DNA of 32,043 nucleotides from Bacteroidota bacterium (GTDB lineage: Bacteria > Bacteroidota > Ignavibacteria > UBA10030 > UBA8401). The position numbers were made by a program, and so were the translations under genes. The stretch lies in contig JAGVPT010000035.1 in the NCBI GenBank assembly GCA_020052095.1, positions 1-32,043 on the forward strand, written 5' to 3'. Below the pieces are notes generated by a model that was not told the DNA's origin, did no database searches, and worked only from the letters and a program-made list of their open reading frames with translations. This document shows positions 25,441 to 32,043 of the stretch, in pieces (positions within the stretch are counted from its first letter, which is position 1; the number at the start of each line of letters is the position of its first letter).

Positions 25441-26691
25441 CTACTCCTTTTTCAATTTCTCATGAAGCACATACGCGAAAACTCCAAACGCGCGCATCGC
25501 CTGAGATTGTGCATGGACTGTTCCAACCTCATTAACGTTGTATCCTTCTTCACCACCAAAAGGATTCCACCCATTCCGTATCCCGTCATCACTAAAGCGG
25601 TGGAGGGTCACCGATGCTTCGCCGTGATGATTTGTCCAGACATGCTCAAGCATCTTTTCGGTTTTTTCAGGAATTTCGGGGAGCAATTCTGGGGCAATCA
25701 TGTATGCGTCTAAAACGAAATGGACGAACGCTCCGTTCCCGTCCATCCTGAGTTGGTAGTAATCCTGCGAATCTATCCAACCGTTCAAGGGATCCATGAT
25801 CCTATTGGCTGATGCAGCCACGATCTTTTTGAATTTTGCATTCCCAGTCATTCGGTACATTGCTGCGCCGACTGAACAGTACGACGCATCATCCCACGGG
25901 AGCTGCTTGCCAAACGCCGCCCTTCCTTGTTTTCCCATCCACTCGCCTTCACCTCGATAGAATGTCTTTTCAATTCCCGGGTATTTCGAATCACCTTCCC
26001 AAACAAGAATCGCATCCTTGTAGAATCGCTCCTCGCGCGTTGCGTCATACAACATGCACGCAACCGTGACCATCTGATTCATATTGCTGTTGGTGATGAT
26101 TATATCGTCTACCTTTTGCTTGGGCGAGTAGTTATACCAACTCCAAAAACCCTCATGATTGGAGAGTCTCCCTTCCTCCTTTGCTTCATCGTACCGTTTT
26201 TTCGCATCTTCGACCCAAATCCTGTTTTTTCTACCCGAAAATTGCCACCAGTACAATTCTGCGAGACAAATCCATGCACGGTCGTCTACCCACGTTCCGT
26301 TCTCCATATTGGTAAGTGGGCGAAGGTTCATTACCGAGTTCAGAAGATTCGCATTGCCGGTTGCGGCATACAAGTGCGCTTCTCCTATAGCTCCATTTGC
26401 TCCCTCCCATCCAGCCGTATAGACTCGGTGAAACTCCGCGTCGATTGCATAGGCGCGCCGAACAGTCTCATCGAAGATCGCCTTAGGTTTCAATGCGGTC
26501 GGCGTTTCTATTTGGACCGGCCCCATGGACTCACTCTTCGAATCAATTCTCGGGCTTCGGAAAAGAATATAAATGATCGCAACCAGAGCGAGCACGCCAA
26601 TGCTTACGACAATGACTAGCGATGAATGAATCGTCGCTTTCTCGTCGCTCTTGCGAGCGCCGTGTGTTTTCAAACTTTTCTGTTTCATCAT
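25441..26691 (-). CDS. Membrane-anchored GH76-like glycoside hydrolase
   Basis: A 416-residue protein with a short cytoplasmic N-terminus and one membrane segment (about 25-45), leaving an (alpha/alpha)6-barrel domain outside the membrane. Segments such as WVDDRAWICLAELYWWQFSG, FWSWYNYSPKQKVDDIIITN and YCSVGAAMYRMTG resemble family GH76 alpha-1,6-mannanases. GH76 enzymes use a pair of adjacent aspartates; the DD in WVDDRAW or KVDDI could be that pair, but I cannot confirm it. The next gene remnant downstream is a GH47 mannosidase, so a former mannan or N-glycan utilisation locus is likely. Confidence 0.65.
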   Translation of the reverse strand: MMKQKSLKTHGARKSDEKATIHSSLVIVVSIGVLALVAIIYILFRSPRIDSKSESMGPVQIETPTALKPKAIFDETVRRAYAIDAEFHRVYTAGWEGANGAIGEAHLYAATGNANLLNSVMNLRPLTNMENGTWVDDRAWICLAELYWWQFSGRKNRIWVEDAKKRYDEAKEEGRLSNHEGFWSWYNYSPKQKVDDIIITNSNMNQMVTVACMLYDATREERFYKDAILVWEGDSKYPGIEKTFYRGEGEWMGKQGRAAFGKQLPWDDASYCSVGAAMYRMTGNAKFKKIVAASANRIMDPLNGWIDSQDYYQLRMDGNGAFVHFVLDAYMIAPELLPEIPEKTEKMLEHVWTNHHGEASVTLHRFSDDGIRNGWNPFGGEEGYNVNEVGTVHAQSQAMRAFGVFAYVLHEKLKKE

Positions 26692-26747: not shown

Positions 26748-27737
<990 letters not shown>

Positions 27738-27998: not shown

Positions 27999-28027
27999 TT
28001 GACAAATGTTGGAATTAGTGTTATATT
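27999..28027 (+). promoter_or_regulatory. Promoter of the vapBC-ATPase operon
   Basis: TTGACA (27999-28004), 17 bp, TATATT (28022-28027): a near-consensus promoter 30 bp before vapB. TAGT-N8-ACTA (28016-28031) overlaps the -10, and GTTGGAATTAGTG (28008-28020) is an inverted copy of CACTAATTCTTCCAAC (27946-27961). These dyads fit autoregulation by the VapB-VapC complex. Confidence 0.75.
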
Positions 28028-28057: not shown

Positions 28058-28288
28058 ATGGAAACCATAGCAACCTCGAAAGGACAAGTCGTAATACCCT
28101 CAAAGGTGCGTAAGAAATTTGACATCAAGGAGGGAACGCGATTTCTCATCGAGATAGATGAAAAAGGTGTTCGGATTATTCTGAAACCAATAACACGGGA
28201 ATATGTTCACAGCCTGCGAGGTAAGTTTAAAGGGAAAGGTCTAATGAAAGCATTTATGGAAGAGAAAAAGAGAGAAAGAGAACTCTGA
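28058..28288 (+). CDS. vapB: Antitoxin of the AbrB/MazE swapped-hairpin type (VapB)
   Basis: A 76-residue antitoxin. The N-terminal AbrB-type DNA-binding beta-hairpin is visible as IATSKGQVVIPSKVRKKFDIKEG, and the charged C-terminal tail (KAFMEEKKREREL) is the usual toxin-binding part. It neutralises VapC and represses the operon. AGGAAA precedes the ATG. Its stop TGA shares a base with the vapC ATG, so antitoxin and toxin are translationally coupled. Confidence 0.9.
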   Translation: METIATSKGQVVIPSKVRKKFDIKEGTRFLIEIDEKGVRIILKPITREYVHSLRGKFKGKGLMKAFMEEKKREREL

Positions 28289-28704
28289 TGCCCCAAAAAG
28301 TCAAAGCATATGTCCTCGATTCCTGGGCAATCATTGCCTATTTTGAGGATGAACCTGCCGGAGCCAAAGTCGCAGATCTCATCGCAGACGCTCACGAACA
28401 TAGCACCCCCCTTCTGATGACGGTGGTAAATGTTGGCGAAGTATGGTATATCCTTGCTCGTCAAACCTCAGAGAGTGAAGCCGATCGTAGCGTTGCAGAA
28501 CTCAATGAATTGGGGATCGAAATTCGTGAGGCTGATTGGAAGCTGGCTCGAAATGCCGCACAATTCAAAGCAAAGCACAAAATGTCGTTCGCCGACGGGT
28601 TTGCAGCGGCATTAGCTGTGCAAGAAAAAGGCGCCGTCCTTGTTACGGGAGATAAAGAATTTCAGCAATTGGAGAATGAAATCAGAATCCATTGGTTAGT
28701 ATGA
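28288..28704 (+). CDS. vapC: PIN-domain ribonuclease toxin (VapC)
   Basis: A 138-residue PIN-domain toxin, typically a Mg-dependent ribonuclease that cleaves tRNA or rRNA when freed from VapB. The acidic active-site residues are Asp11 (VLDSWA), Glu51 (NVGEVWY), Asp103 (FADGFAAALA) and Asp122 (VTGDKEF), all present, so the enzyme looks active. Its stop overlaps the next gene's ATG by 4 bp (ATGA), an unusual extension of a TA pair into a longer operon. Confidence 0.9.
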   Translation: MPQKVKAYVLDSWAIIAYFEDEPAGAKVADLIADAHEHSTPLLMTVVNVGEVWYILARQTSESEADRSVAELNELGIEIREADWKLARNAAQFKAKHKMSFADGFAAALAVQEKGAVLVTGDKEFQQLENEIRIHWLV

Positions 28705-29333
28705 AAGCCTCAACAGAGATTCTCGCGATTGAAGAAATTACTGTTTCTCATTATGAGTCTATCGATCTAGATAGGCTTGTTATGTTTGCGGTCGCCAAGC
28801 TGGCTGACATGGATCTGGAACTCTCATTGGAGAACATTATCGTTGCAACATTCAAGCTTTTCCGAAAGAAATTCTCTTTGATTGGCTATCCAGAATTTCC
28901 AGATGCAACAAGAGTAGAAAAATGTCTTTGGAGATGCAAAGGCAAGAAAAGAGGATGGCTGGGGGGAAATACGCCGCACGGCTACCTTTTGACGGATAAG
29001 GGACGATTGGTAGCTGATCACGCTGCGGCTCTGTTGTCTTTTTCATCGGGAACAAAGTATAAAACAATATCCCAGACACGTAGAAAGGAAAGCATCATTG
29101 CCGAAGTCGTTTCCTCGCCTGCTTATAAGAAGTACTTAGAAGGACAAAAGGATAAGATCTCCGAAGCTGAATTATGTTATATGTTACAAGGAACTTTAGA
29201 TTCACTGAAAGATACACTTAGAGAAAATTTGGAATCGCTCAAAATAATCTCTGAAGAACTTCAGCGGAAGGACGTCAGCGAATTTCTTAACCTTTTGGAA
29301 AAAAGATTCTCAAGATTTCTTTACGACAAATAG
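28701..29333 (+). CDS. Unrecognised protein with winged-helix-like N-terminus
   Basis: A 210-residue protein. The first about 100 residues look like a winged helix: MFAVAKLADMDLELSLENIIVATFKLF, then the YPEFPDATRVEKCLW helix and a TPHGYLLTDKGRLVADH wing. After a linker the C-terminus is strongly helical (ISEAELCYMLQGTLDSLKDTL, ENLESLKIISEELQ), probably oligomeric or partner-binding. No family name is recognised. The start at 28701 is set by the 4-bp overlap with vapC. It ends 8 bp before the GHKL ATPase gene, implying a DNA-binding or adaptor role for the ATPase (inference). Confidence 0.7.
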   Translation: MKASTEILAIEEITVSHYESIDLDRLVMFAVAKLADMDLELSLENIIVATFKLFRKKFSLIGYPEFPDATRVEKCLWRCKGKKRGWLGGNTPHGYLLTDKGRLVADHAAALLSFSSGTKYKTISQTRRKESIIAEVVSSPAYKKYLEGQKDKISEAELCYMLQGTLDSLKDTLRENLESLKIISEELQRKDVSEFLNLLEKRFSRFLYDK

Positions 29334-29341
29334 GAGTTGAC

Positions 29342-31564
29342 ATGCAAAAATATGAAATCCAGGCGGACCAGCGCCACATGGTACGCAGCGTCCAGACTGC
29401 AATGCAGGGGAACGCAATTCGTGCATTGGTTGAATTGATCACCAACTCCGATGACAGTTATGGTGACGTCGAAGATCTTGGGAAAAAAGCAAGTGGAGTT
29501 ATTGAAGTCTTGTGCAAAAAAGACGGATACTGTTGCCATTTTGCGGTCCGAGACGAGGCTGAAGGAATGTCCAGAGAAGAAATCAAGAAGTCATTTGGAG
29601 AAAACTCGTACGGCGCTGCTACCAGCGGATTAAAGGAAGGCAGACGGCGTCGCGGGTATTTCGGCCAGGGAGCAAAAGATGCATTGGCTGGTATGAAAGA
29701 TGGGAAAATAGTCACAATCAAAGGCAATCTTCTGTCAGAATGTCGAGTTTACATTGAACGAGGCAAATTATATGGAGAATTAGAAGACACAATAACAGCT
29801 TCAAATGGGCTTAGGAGTGCGCATAAAATCAATGGAGATGGCACAATCGCTTATTTCACGGCTGACCCAGAAAAAACTGGGACAGTTCCAAGATTTGAAA
29901 GAGTTCAAGCTGAGCTCGCAAATAATTACATGCTTCGGAGGATAATGACCAACCCTCAGCGCAAGATTCTATTGATCGATGAAAACAATGATGAACGCCG
30001 AAGACTTAGGTATAAATTACCTGAAGGCAAAGAAATATTGAACGAAGACTTCGCTATTCCGTACAAAGACTATCCCCATTTCAAAATTCACTTATCTCTT
30101 TGGAGATCTGAAAGAGAGCTTTCGCAATCGGGTGATGATCGGGCTGGTGGACTCTTAATCATTGATGATGCCAACGTTGTGCTAGATATCTCTCTATTCA
30201 AGTACGATAACGAGCCGCTTGCGGCGAGGTTCTTTGGAGAAGTGGTCATAAATGATTTCCGAGAATTTCTTAAGAATGAAGAACCTATTCTTACTGAAGA
30301 GCGAAACGGATTAGCAATTCGGCACCCTTTCTGTCAGAACCTTATTCGTGAAATCGAGAAACGACTTGAAGTCAAAATAGATGAAGAGAAAGAAAGAAAA
30401 CAAAGAGAAGCTCAAACAAAATTTGATCTGGAAGAGGCAAATCGTTACAAAAAGGCTTTCCACGTTCTCAACGAAATCGCAAAAGTGGAGGCAGAATCAG
30501 TACTGAATCTAGGCGAGAATCCTGATGAACCCATTGAAAACGTTCCAGATGGTTTGACCCTATATCCATCATCAGCTCAGATTACCGTTGGAAAGCGTTA
30601 TGCTTTTCAACTTAGGTTAGACACGAGGAAGATCCGTCATGGTTCGATCATTAAAATTTCCTGCACGTGTCCGAAAGCAAAATTAGAAACCTCTGAAATT
30701 CGAATTACTCCAGAAGATGGATCAGGAATCATACGAAAATACATAACGATTAAGGCTGCCGAACCAAACGTGCAAGGTTTACTCCGTGCATCTACAGGTT
30801 CCATCTCTAAAGAAGCAAAGATATTTGTTGTCCCCGAGAAGGAGTTGCTGTTTGAAGAAGGAATGGTGTTTCAGCCAGAGATGGTCACCCTCCGTCCCAA
30901 TAAGCCGAGAAAGATTTATCTACTCGTGTACATAAAAATGATCGAAGGTGGAAGCACCGTCAAACTTTCCAGTGATAATGAGGCAATACACTTGTCAAAG
31001 TCGGAGGTCGTTGTTAGCGAGGCAGATGCTGAAAGGCATGTCGCTAAGTATGAACTTGAAATCTGGGGAGAGGGAGAGGGCCAACAGGGTATGATCACTG
31101 CGGAATGCGGGCAATTCATGGCGTTGCTGCAAGCTTTCGTTCACTCAAAAGACGAAGTTCCAAAAGAGCCATCGGGAATGTTCAGCGAACCCAGCTTCGA
31201 CTATGACCCGGACCCTACTCTGAGAACAACTTACAGTTCTGAAACAGGCAAAGTAACGATCTACGTGAACTTTCCATCTGTCTTTCACTATCTAGGAGAA
31301 GAGGCTAAGTATAGAAAGACTCTAGAAGCACAGGTGTTAATAGCTGATCTTGTTGCAGAGCGATGTTTTTTTGAGATCGCCAGAAAGAGAGTCACAAACG
31401 ATCAATTGATAAGACCTGAAGCGAAATCAGATAAAATTCAGCGCCATACATATGAATTCTCGAAAAAATACGGCAGGCGTATTCATGAGGCCTTGGTGGA
31501 CCAGAATCTGTTGTCCAAATCAAAAACCAGTATAGAAGAGAAAGTTAAACTTTCACTCAACTAA
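29342..31564 (+). CDS. GHKL (Hsp90/MORC-like) ATPase of unknown system
   Basis: A 740-residue protein. The N-terminus is a GHKL ATPase fold: N box ELITNSDD (Glu31, Asn35), G1 DEAEGM (71-76) and G2 with lid GYFGQGAKDAL (105-115), all apparently functional. A transducer-like region runs to about 335, followed by a charged helix or coiled coil (335-385). Residues about 400-610 look like tandem beta-sandwich domains (VDLTLYPSS-like GLTLYPSSAQITVGKRYAF; GLLRASTG), and a last helical block (about 640-740) contains VFHYLGEEAKYRKTL and DLVAERCFFEIARKR. It resembles MORC/Hsp90-type ATPases seen in defence contexts, but no named family fits. GGAG precedes the ATG. Confidence 0.8.
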   Translation: MQKYEIQADQRHMVRSVQTAMQGNAIRALVELITNSDDSYGDVEDLGKKASGVIEVLCKKDGYCCHFAVRDEAEGMSREEIKKSFGENSYGAATSGLKEGRRRRGYFGQGAKDALAGMKDGKIVTIKGNLLSECRVYIERGKLYGELEDTITASNGLRSAHKINGDGTIAYFTADPEKTGTVPRFERVQAELANNYMLRRIMTNPQRKILLIDENNDERRRLRYKLPEGKEILNEDFAIPYKDYPHFKIHLSLWRSERELSQSGDDRAGGLLIIDDANVVLDISLFKYDNEPLAARFFGEVVINDFREFLKNEEPILTEERNGLAIRHPFCQNLIREIEKRLEVKIDEEKERKQREAQTKFDLEEANRYKKAFHVLNEIAKVEAESVLNLGENPDEPIENVPDGLTLYPSSAQITVGKRYAFQLRLDTRKIRHGSIIKISCTCPKAKLETSEIRITPEDGSGIIRKYITIKAAEPNVQGLLRASTGSISKEAKIFVVPEKELLFEEGMVFQPEMVTLRPNKPRKIYLLVYIKMIEGGSTVKLSSDNEAIHLSKSEVVVSEADAERHVAKYELEIWGEGEGQQGMITAECGQFMALLQAFVHSKDEVPKEPSGMFSEPSFDYDPDPTLRTTYSSETGKVTIYVNFPSVFHYLGEEAKYRKTLEAQVLIADLVAERCFFEIARKRVTNDQLIRPEAKSDKIQRHTYEFSKKYGRRIHEALVDQNLLSKSKTSIEEKVKLSLN

Positions 31565-31937: not shown

Positions 31938-32043
31938 CTCCGATATTACTGATGCTTAAATAAAGAATGGATACTTTCAAATTAATTTATTATCTTTCCG
32001 GGTATGAGACCTCCCGGAACATCTGCCGATTTGGAGCAACGTC

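Follow-up and report, generated by a model that had tools for sequence, protein, structure and literature searches.

The right-hand end of a 32,043-nucleotide contig from a Bacteroidota bacterium (JAGVPT010000035.1, referred to here as the window; part of a 3.9-Mb genome in 281 contigs) carries four consecutive genes that encode a VapB-like antitoxin, a VapC toxin, a winged-helix protein and an ATPase with GHKL and S5 domains. Comparative analysis of this locus and its relatives shows that the conserved unit consists of the last two genes, the winged-helix protein and the GHKL-S5 ATPase, and that the VapBC module is accessory rather than core. We put at about 0.5 the probability that the winged-helix-ATPase pair is a mobile two-gene module, most likely of the defence type, whose target is DNA that is foreign or wrongly marked; it is the genomic context that points to a defence role. 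The features of the operon are the following (aa, amino acids).

27999..28027, plus strand: predicted sigma-70-type promoter, TTGACA-N17-TATATT with an extended -10 TG, preceding all four genes (consensus scan, 11/12 positions)
28058..28288, plus strand: vapB-like gene, AbrB/MazE-type antitoxin, 76 aa, accessory (PF04014, 1.4e-11; TIGR01439, 8.7e-12)
28288..28704, plus strand: VapC gene, PIN-domain RNase toxin, 138 aa (PF01850, 3e-18)
28701..29333, plus strand: winged-helix gene, core gene 1, 210 aa, with a helical C-terminal half
29342..31564, plus strand: GHKL-S5 ATPase gene, core gene 2, 740 aa

The winged-helix-ATPase pair

Searches for close relatives with the single ATPase sequence returned none from genome contigs, viral contigs, plasmids or phages, and profile searches were needed. 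A sample of 296 genomes of the phylum yielded three distant ATPase relatives, one of which is directly preceded by a homologue of the 210-aa protein (E 6e-18). A profile built from five ATPase sequences returned 146 relatives, 80 of which were kept; these, together with the window and other matches, supplied the 42 loci at which a winged-helix homologue is present. This set is biased by the motif used for fetching and by metagenome-assembled genomes, and the statistics given below ignore relatedness except where trees were used. At 41 of the 42 loci the gene adjoining the winged-helix gene encodes the ATPase and at the remaining one, L012, a divergent GHKL protein. Both genes point the same way, and the distance between them falls mostly within -50 to +45 base pairs (bp); their order is reversed at a single locus. 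The pair is spread across more than 20 bacterial and archaeal phyla, with three archaea included, and is also carried by a 129-kb virus contig that encodes a terminase. On this virus contig, a gene that by eye resembles nucleotidyltransferases of the MNT/AbiEii type lies just downstream of the pair (L008:12614-13168). A sister design with a different ATPase is seen at L012:7129-12610 (genome G176), where vapB and vapC are followed by genes for an 815-aa protein with Sigma70_r4 and RNA polymerase alpha-C-terminal-domain-like regions, the winged-helix protein and a 590-aa protein with GHKL-like motifs of another kind.

In a tree of 83 ATPase sequences, the paired state requires 2 changes, compared with about 28 in shuffles. 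Every lineage of partner-carrying ATPases has the partner adjacent, and all 39 of the 39 ATPases in the branches to which the window belongs are paired. The 44 sampled ATPases that lack the partner make up two other branches, and their neighbours are metabolic genes, such as those for oxidoreductases and transporters. Given this separation in the tree and the metabolic neighbours of the partnerless ATPases, pairing is a property of lineages rather than a product of chance, and it goes with a different genomic setting. An earlier reading of the sequence alone (the first-pass annotation) had suggested testing whether the 210-aa protein and the ATPase are always paired, and these data support a conserved pair; it had also named as damaging to its proposal the occurrence of the ATPase without the partner in housekeeping contexts, and that is indeed what is seen in the two other branches, but not in those of the window. 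Pfam, NCBIfam, PADLOC and PHROGs contain no curated family for either core protein. Among five ATPase relatives scanned against PADLOC, only the one at L024 has a match, which is weak and C-terminal (MzaA, 3.5e-8 over 49 residues).

The AlphaFold2 model of the 210-aa protein, computed from an alignment with 40 relatives (predicted local distance difference test score, pLDDT, 93.1), contains a winged helix at residues ~15-116, followed by a helical second half. The closest fold matches are AF1382 (VIA Z 10.5) and DtxR/MntR (~9); a Pfam scan detected no domain, and a search of PDB sequences with the winged-helix profile gave matches at chance level only. The fold thus agrees with the earlier description of the partner as a DNA-binding-type winged helix, and the protein probably binds DNA.

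The 740-aa ATPase has two Pfam matches, HATPase_c (8e-4) and HATPase_c_3 (2e-3), both under the Pfam cut-off. Its AlphaFold2 model (pLDDT 87.8) comprises a GHKL domain (~1-205), an S5 domain (~206-330), helices (329-383), two beta domains (~400-500 and ~505-600), which from their strand pattern may be Ig-like, and a helical C-terminus. The best fold matches are MORC2/3 and Hsp90 at Z of about 21, with residues 7-358 aligning equally well to MORC2 (Z 20.9, root-mean-square deviation 3.9) and to Hsp90 (Z 21.2). The N-box Glu and Asn, the DxGxG-like motif and the glycine lid that define the GHKL superfamily are all present, and the order of a GHKL domain followed by an S5 domain is that of MORC. 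The GHKL motif residues E31, N35, D71, G75 and G110, as well as the S5-domain arginine R321, are invariant in 44 relatives, and because the ATP-site residues are so conserved, the protein is expected to be catalytically active. We propose Glu31 as the general base; R321 is likely to be an ATP-contacting finger comparable to R380 of Hsp90, and by analogy with its relatives the ATPase would be a dimer. The Arg of the MORC motif GhXhhpXXRhl was not found, the corresponding column 278 being occupied in the 44 sequences mainly by G, N, H, D, E or A, with Arg not among the common residues. Likewise, the paraMORC2-type ExxxH was not found: His328 is kept in 36 of the 44 sequences but position 324 is L, I, F or V. 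Pfam recognised neither a nuclease nor a TIR domain in the ATPase. Among viral proteins, the model (residues 1-740) has its best fold matches in giant viruses, to uncharacterised proteins from Hokovirus (6e-24) and Yasminevirus (1e-21) that cover most of its length, with rIIA proteins next.

Mobility, genomic setting and the VapBC module

Several lines of evidence show that the winged-helix-ATPase pair is mobile. Its distribution is sporadic, with occurrences in 3 of 395 genomes of the home phylum. In a genome of the same genus, G120, the aldo/keto reductase gene to the left of the operon and the gene at 25441-26691 are syntenic with the window, and no vapBC, winged-helix or ATPase gene lies beside them. 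The clearest case is L033:7252-9957, where the two-gene unit alone interrupts an N4/N6 DNA methylase gene (with an HNH-like tail): the insert is bounded by exact 13-bp direct repeats, CATATAGATTGTT (chance expectation 0.00), and joining the flanks restores a single methylase frame of 393 aa. A 16-bp repeat, TTTATTCAACAAAATC, lies inside this insert near both ends. At L042, the unit sits together with a methylase fragment between sufB and sufC. Further insertion scars may be represented by a repeat of about 50 bp at L019 and an imperfect one of about 35 bp at L041. Two other candidates were discarded: the copies of a 27-bp repeat at L024 are two real tRNA-Arg genes with different anticodons, and an 18-bp repeat at L020 was not counted, since it is continued by its reverse complement in the manner of interspersed palindromic repeats.

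The neighbourhoods of the pair are enriched in DNA methylases; how often restriction genes are adjacent was among the checks suggested by the first-pass annotation. N6_N4 methylases occur within 2.5 kb of 10 of the 42 pair loci and of none of the 44 partnerless ones (Fisher p=4e-4), and 12 methylase open reading frames (ORFs) lie near the pair as against 3 far from it (p=0.002). At L009, the genes overlap in the order vapB-vapC-methylase-winged helix-ATPase, and at L029 a type III methylase gene begins 19 bp after the ATPase gene. Other neighbours include a SNF2 helicase and a DUF1156 methylase (L016), Mrr with DUF499 and DUF1156 proteins (L017), a pPIWI-associated nuclease (L014) and, upstream of the pair, a DUF559 protein (L043).

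In the window, all four plus-strand genes are present with the junctions originally described, namely TGATG between vapB and vapC, an ATGA overlap of vapC with the winged-helix gene and an 8-bp gap before the ATPase gene; an alternative in-frame TTG start at 28692 would extend the winged-helix protein to 213 aa. The predicted promoter is likewise present as described, near consensus, and the four genes are probably co-transcribed from it. The operon had also been described as more A/T-rich than its flanks, and its G+C content of 41-44% is indeed lower than that of most of the window (46-53%), apart from a dip to 44% near 24 kb. As for the broken reading frames reported downstream, this claim lends itself only to a weak test, the contig stopping 479 bp after the end of the ATPase gene; within this stretch no ORF exceeds 54 aa, and a single 38-codon stub has no match in Pfam. 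The genes sampled to the left are of the housekeeping kind (peptidoglycan, lipid A, thioredoxin, major facilitator superfamily). The final 99 bp are found again where another contig of this genome ends, so the assembly broke at a repeat; the right flank of the island is thus an assembly branch (window:31945-32043). The flanking features of the window and the members of a small gene family described below are the following.

26748..27737, minus strand: aldo/keto reductase, outside the system, last conserved gene to the left of the island (PF00248, 1.5e-81)
31945..32043, no strand: contig end of the window, shared with an end of contig C91 from this genome (99 bp identical)
L023:851-1084, L024:7093-7341, L025:4620-4850, L039:4234-4464 and L058:7107-7361: members of the family of 76-88-aa proteins

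The window vapB and vapC are ordinary members of the VapBC type II class, an AbrB-type antitoxin gene overlapping the PIN toxin gene that follows it, and the acidic active-site residues of the PIN domain are conserved across an alignment of seven VapC proteins. VapBC genes are found directly upstream of the pair or one gene away at 7 of the 42 loci (the window, L013, L038, L048, L056, L009 and L012), the intervening gene encoding the methylase at L009 and the 815-aa protein at L012. The window VapB is 42-53% identical to the VapBs of the other six loci, and a related vapBC also lies upstream in G476. Furthermore, an unbiased sampling of the phylum (395 genomes) yielded three pairs, and each is preceded by vapBC, with a single intervening gene in two cases. 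A vapBC neighbour unique to this genome, which the first-pass annotation had counted against its own proposal, is thereby disproved. The recurrence of VapBC upstream holds, and its status as a fixed component does not: roughly every sixth locus has it, and different lineages acquired it separately.

L013 repeats the four-gene layout of the window and encodes the closest ATPase (73% identity); its VapC and that of the window share only 44% identity. The window protein falls among free-standing VapCs from the order to which the window belongs (up to 64% identity) and the L013 protein among free-standing ones from its family, and on the VapC tree the pair-linked proteins need 6-7 changes. These groupings and changes indicate that VapBC has been recruited repeatedly into the same upstream slot. 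Accordingly, inheritance of VapBC together with the core from the common ancestor of the window and L013 is disfavoured, and VapBC as an obligatory component is rejected, about 35 of the 42 pairs lacking it. The L013 ATPase gene has an in-frame TAG near residue 332 (L013:~8995), and this copy may be decayed or mis-assembled.

At five loci, the slot directly upstream of the winged-helix gene is filled by a different gene, encoding a basic protein of 76-88 aa. The family has the motif RFKRLAxxRTNxVLxxLRxLGNxSNxxxYEYxE; members are also encoded near the winged-helix gene at L027 and L045, and two members tested have no Pfam match. In one subgroup, a protein of about 59-86 aa with a 'ENDYYEWLKDNFKSFFNH'-like motif is encoded right after the ATPase (L034:3120-3377, L040:3083-3304, L032:4182-4361).

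Proposed function and rival explanations

We propose that the winged-helix protein would bind DNA and recruit the ATPase, which, as a dimer closing upon ATP, might clamp or reorganise DNA or a DNA-bound complex. Depending on exchangeable accessory genes such as DNA methylases, nucleases and VapBC, the last being the one present in the window, the invader would be blocked or an effector encoded nearby would be signalled to. There, the most likely role of VapBC is that of an addiction or guard module: if the operon were lost or shut off, the labile VapB would disappear and VapC would arrest the cell. Several observations weigh against a defence-type module. Neither core protein has a recognised nuclease domain; no PADLOC-DB 2.0 model matches any of the four window proteins, including both core proteins; most pair loci have no recognised defence gene alongside, and some lie amid housekeeping genes, as within the suf operon at L042. 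Moreover, the methylase p-values are approximate, the seed profiles having been drawn from the same loci and the loci being related. A more far-reaching version, which we consider less likely than not, is that of a stand-alone immune module shared between domains of life, in which an Hsp90/MORC-like ATP clamp and its dedicated winged-helix adaptor recognise foreign DNA without a nuclease of their own, with a plug-in slot filled independently by VapBC, DNA methylases or nucleases; it would be a prokaryotic counterpart of DNA silencing by MORC.

The place of VapBC in the operon allows two opposite interpretations. VapC could be the effector, with the GHKL-winged-helix pair as a switch: on sensing damaged or foreign DNA, the ATPase would release VapC from VapB, much as the GHKL kinase VapK releases VapC from VapS in VapKSC. 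The combination, in a single operon, of VapC with a GHKL protein and a protein of DNA-binding type is the parts list of CapK/CapS and VapKSC (PMC13373217), and the repeated recruitment of VapBC to one slot fits this scheme; nevertheless, we regard it as improbable, given the predominance of pairs without VapBC, the Hsp90/MORC type of the ATPase, with S5 rather than a SpoIIAB-like kinase, the absence of STAS from either predicted fold, and the ordinary VapB next to the window VapC. Conversely, VapBC might be a chance neighbour that shares only the promoter. Most VapBC relatives in the class stand alone, hence VapBC is generic, and its association with the pair reaches only p=0.011 (6/42 loci vs 0/44 partnerless ones in the test). 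Chance is nonetheless an unlikely explanation: there are just 5 PIN matches in the 3.9-Mb genome, vapBC precedes all three pairs of the phylum sample, with an intervening gene in two, and the same layout recurs at L013, where VapC comes from a different lineage.

Two further explanations concern the pair itself. It could be a selfish mobile element or a toxin-antitoxin-like unit, with methylases and VapBC merely marking hot spots of mobile DNA. The clean insertion into the methylase gene at L033, that in the suf operon, the position between two tRNA-Arg genes at L024 and the presence in only 3 of 395 genomes are what such an element would show. However, the unit contains no recombinase, the 210-aa protein with its helical C-terminal domain is bigger than the usual antitoxin, and the ATPase motifs have all been kept over great divergence, which argues for a useful activity; we therefore doubt this explanation. 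Alternatively, the winged-helix protein could be a repressor and the ATPase a regulator that together control the immune or stress operon beside them, in the manner of CapK/CapS, CapH/CapP and CapW. The resemblance of the winged helix to DtxR/MntR-type repressors and the constancy of the pair beside variable partner genes are compatible with this; but the accessory gene usually precedes the pair, or stands apart from it, instead of following it, the pair moves alone at L033, and the size of the ATPase and its Hsp90-like domains exceed the needs of a kinase switch, so that a purely regulatory function seems a poor candidate.

The present analysis defines a widespread gene pair that is missing from Pfam, NCBIfam, PADLOC and PHROGs and that links GHKL clamps, such as Hsp90, MutL and MORC, to a dedicated DNA-binding partner and to restriction-modification (R-M) and toxin genes. 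Should the pair prove to be a defence system, it could provide a small, testable model for the action of MORC-type ATPases on DNA, which in eukaryotes has long been a question, and for the way defence operons acquire toxin-antitoxin modules.

Comparison with known systems

GHKL ATPases have several known settings in prokaryotes and their viruses. The rIIA-type proteins of phage T4 share with the window ATPase an N-terminal GHKL ATPase and a similar length, and rIIA is among its viral fold matches; unlike them, the window ATPase has no PHROG match, and the fold match reaches only about 1e-10 to 1e-8, mostly over partial length. The rIIA-type proteins are not known to have a winged-helix partner. 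The GHKL-Shedu protein VcSduA combines a GHKL ATPase with a fused PD-(D/E)xK nuclease in phage defence (PMC12137116); the GHKL ATPase is common to both systems, but no fused nuclease was detected in the window proteins with Pfam or PADLOC. HEF_HK and Response_reg_2 likewise form a gene pair, in which a HATPase related to paraMORC is encoded beside R-M genes (PMC8011034); its partner has a receiver-like fold, in contrast to the winged helix of the window, and neither PF19191 (HEF_HK) nor PF19192 (Response_reg_2) matches the window proteins at E<=1. With respect to VapBC type II modules, the window vapB and vapC are ordinary representatives, yet accessory to the operon rather than its core.

The closest relatives in terms of protein family are MORC and paraMORC1-5, the GHKL ATPases of prokaryotic R-M systems (Iyer et al. 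2008, PMC2292703). Like these, the window ATPase has a GHKL and S5 core with intact motifs, is sporadic and laterally mobile, and has DNA methylases and nucleases nearby. Unlike these, it lacks the MORC S5 Arg and the paraMORC2 ExxxH motif, and it is distinguished by its constant winged-helix partner and by beta domains in tandem followed by a helical tail, a helicase being adjacent only occasionally (L016). The families paraMORC1, 3, 4 and 5 are defined by C-terminal extensions of their own, including a restriction endonuclease-fold nuclease and TIR; the window model shows two beta domains and a helical tail.

In logic, the closest experimentally proven relative is VapKSC, in which a GHKL kinase is proposed to free VapC from VapS after DNA damage and whose operon protects against a phage (PMC13373217). 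The window operon shares with CapK/CapS and VapKSC a GHKL protein with a winged helix-turn-helix or antitoxin partner, a VapC-type PIN toxin in some operons and the link to immune operons. CapK and VapK, however, are STAS-GHKL kinases, and CapS and VapS contain STAS, whereas the window encodes an Hsp90/MORC-type ATPase and a conventional VapB, and no STAS domain was found by Pfam in the window proteins or in either predicted core fold. The homology between the parts of the two systems is confined to the GHKL fold and the PIN toxin.

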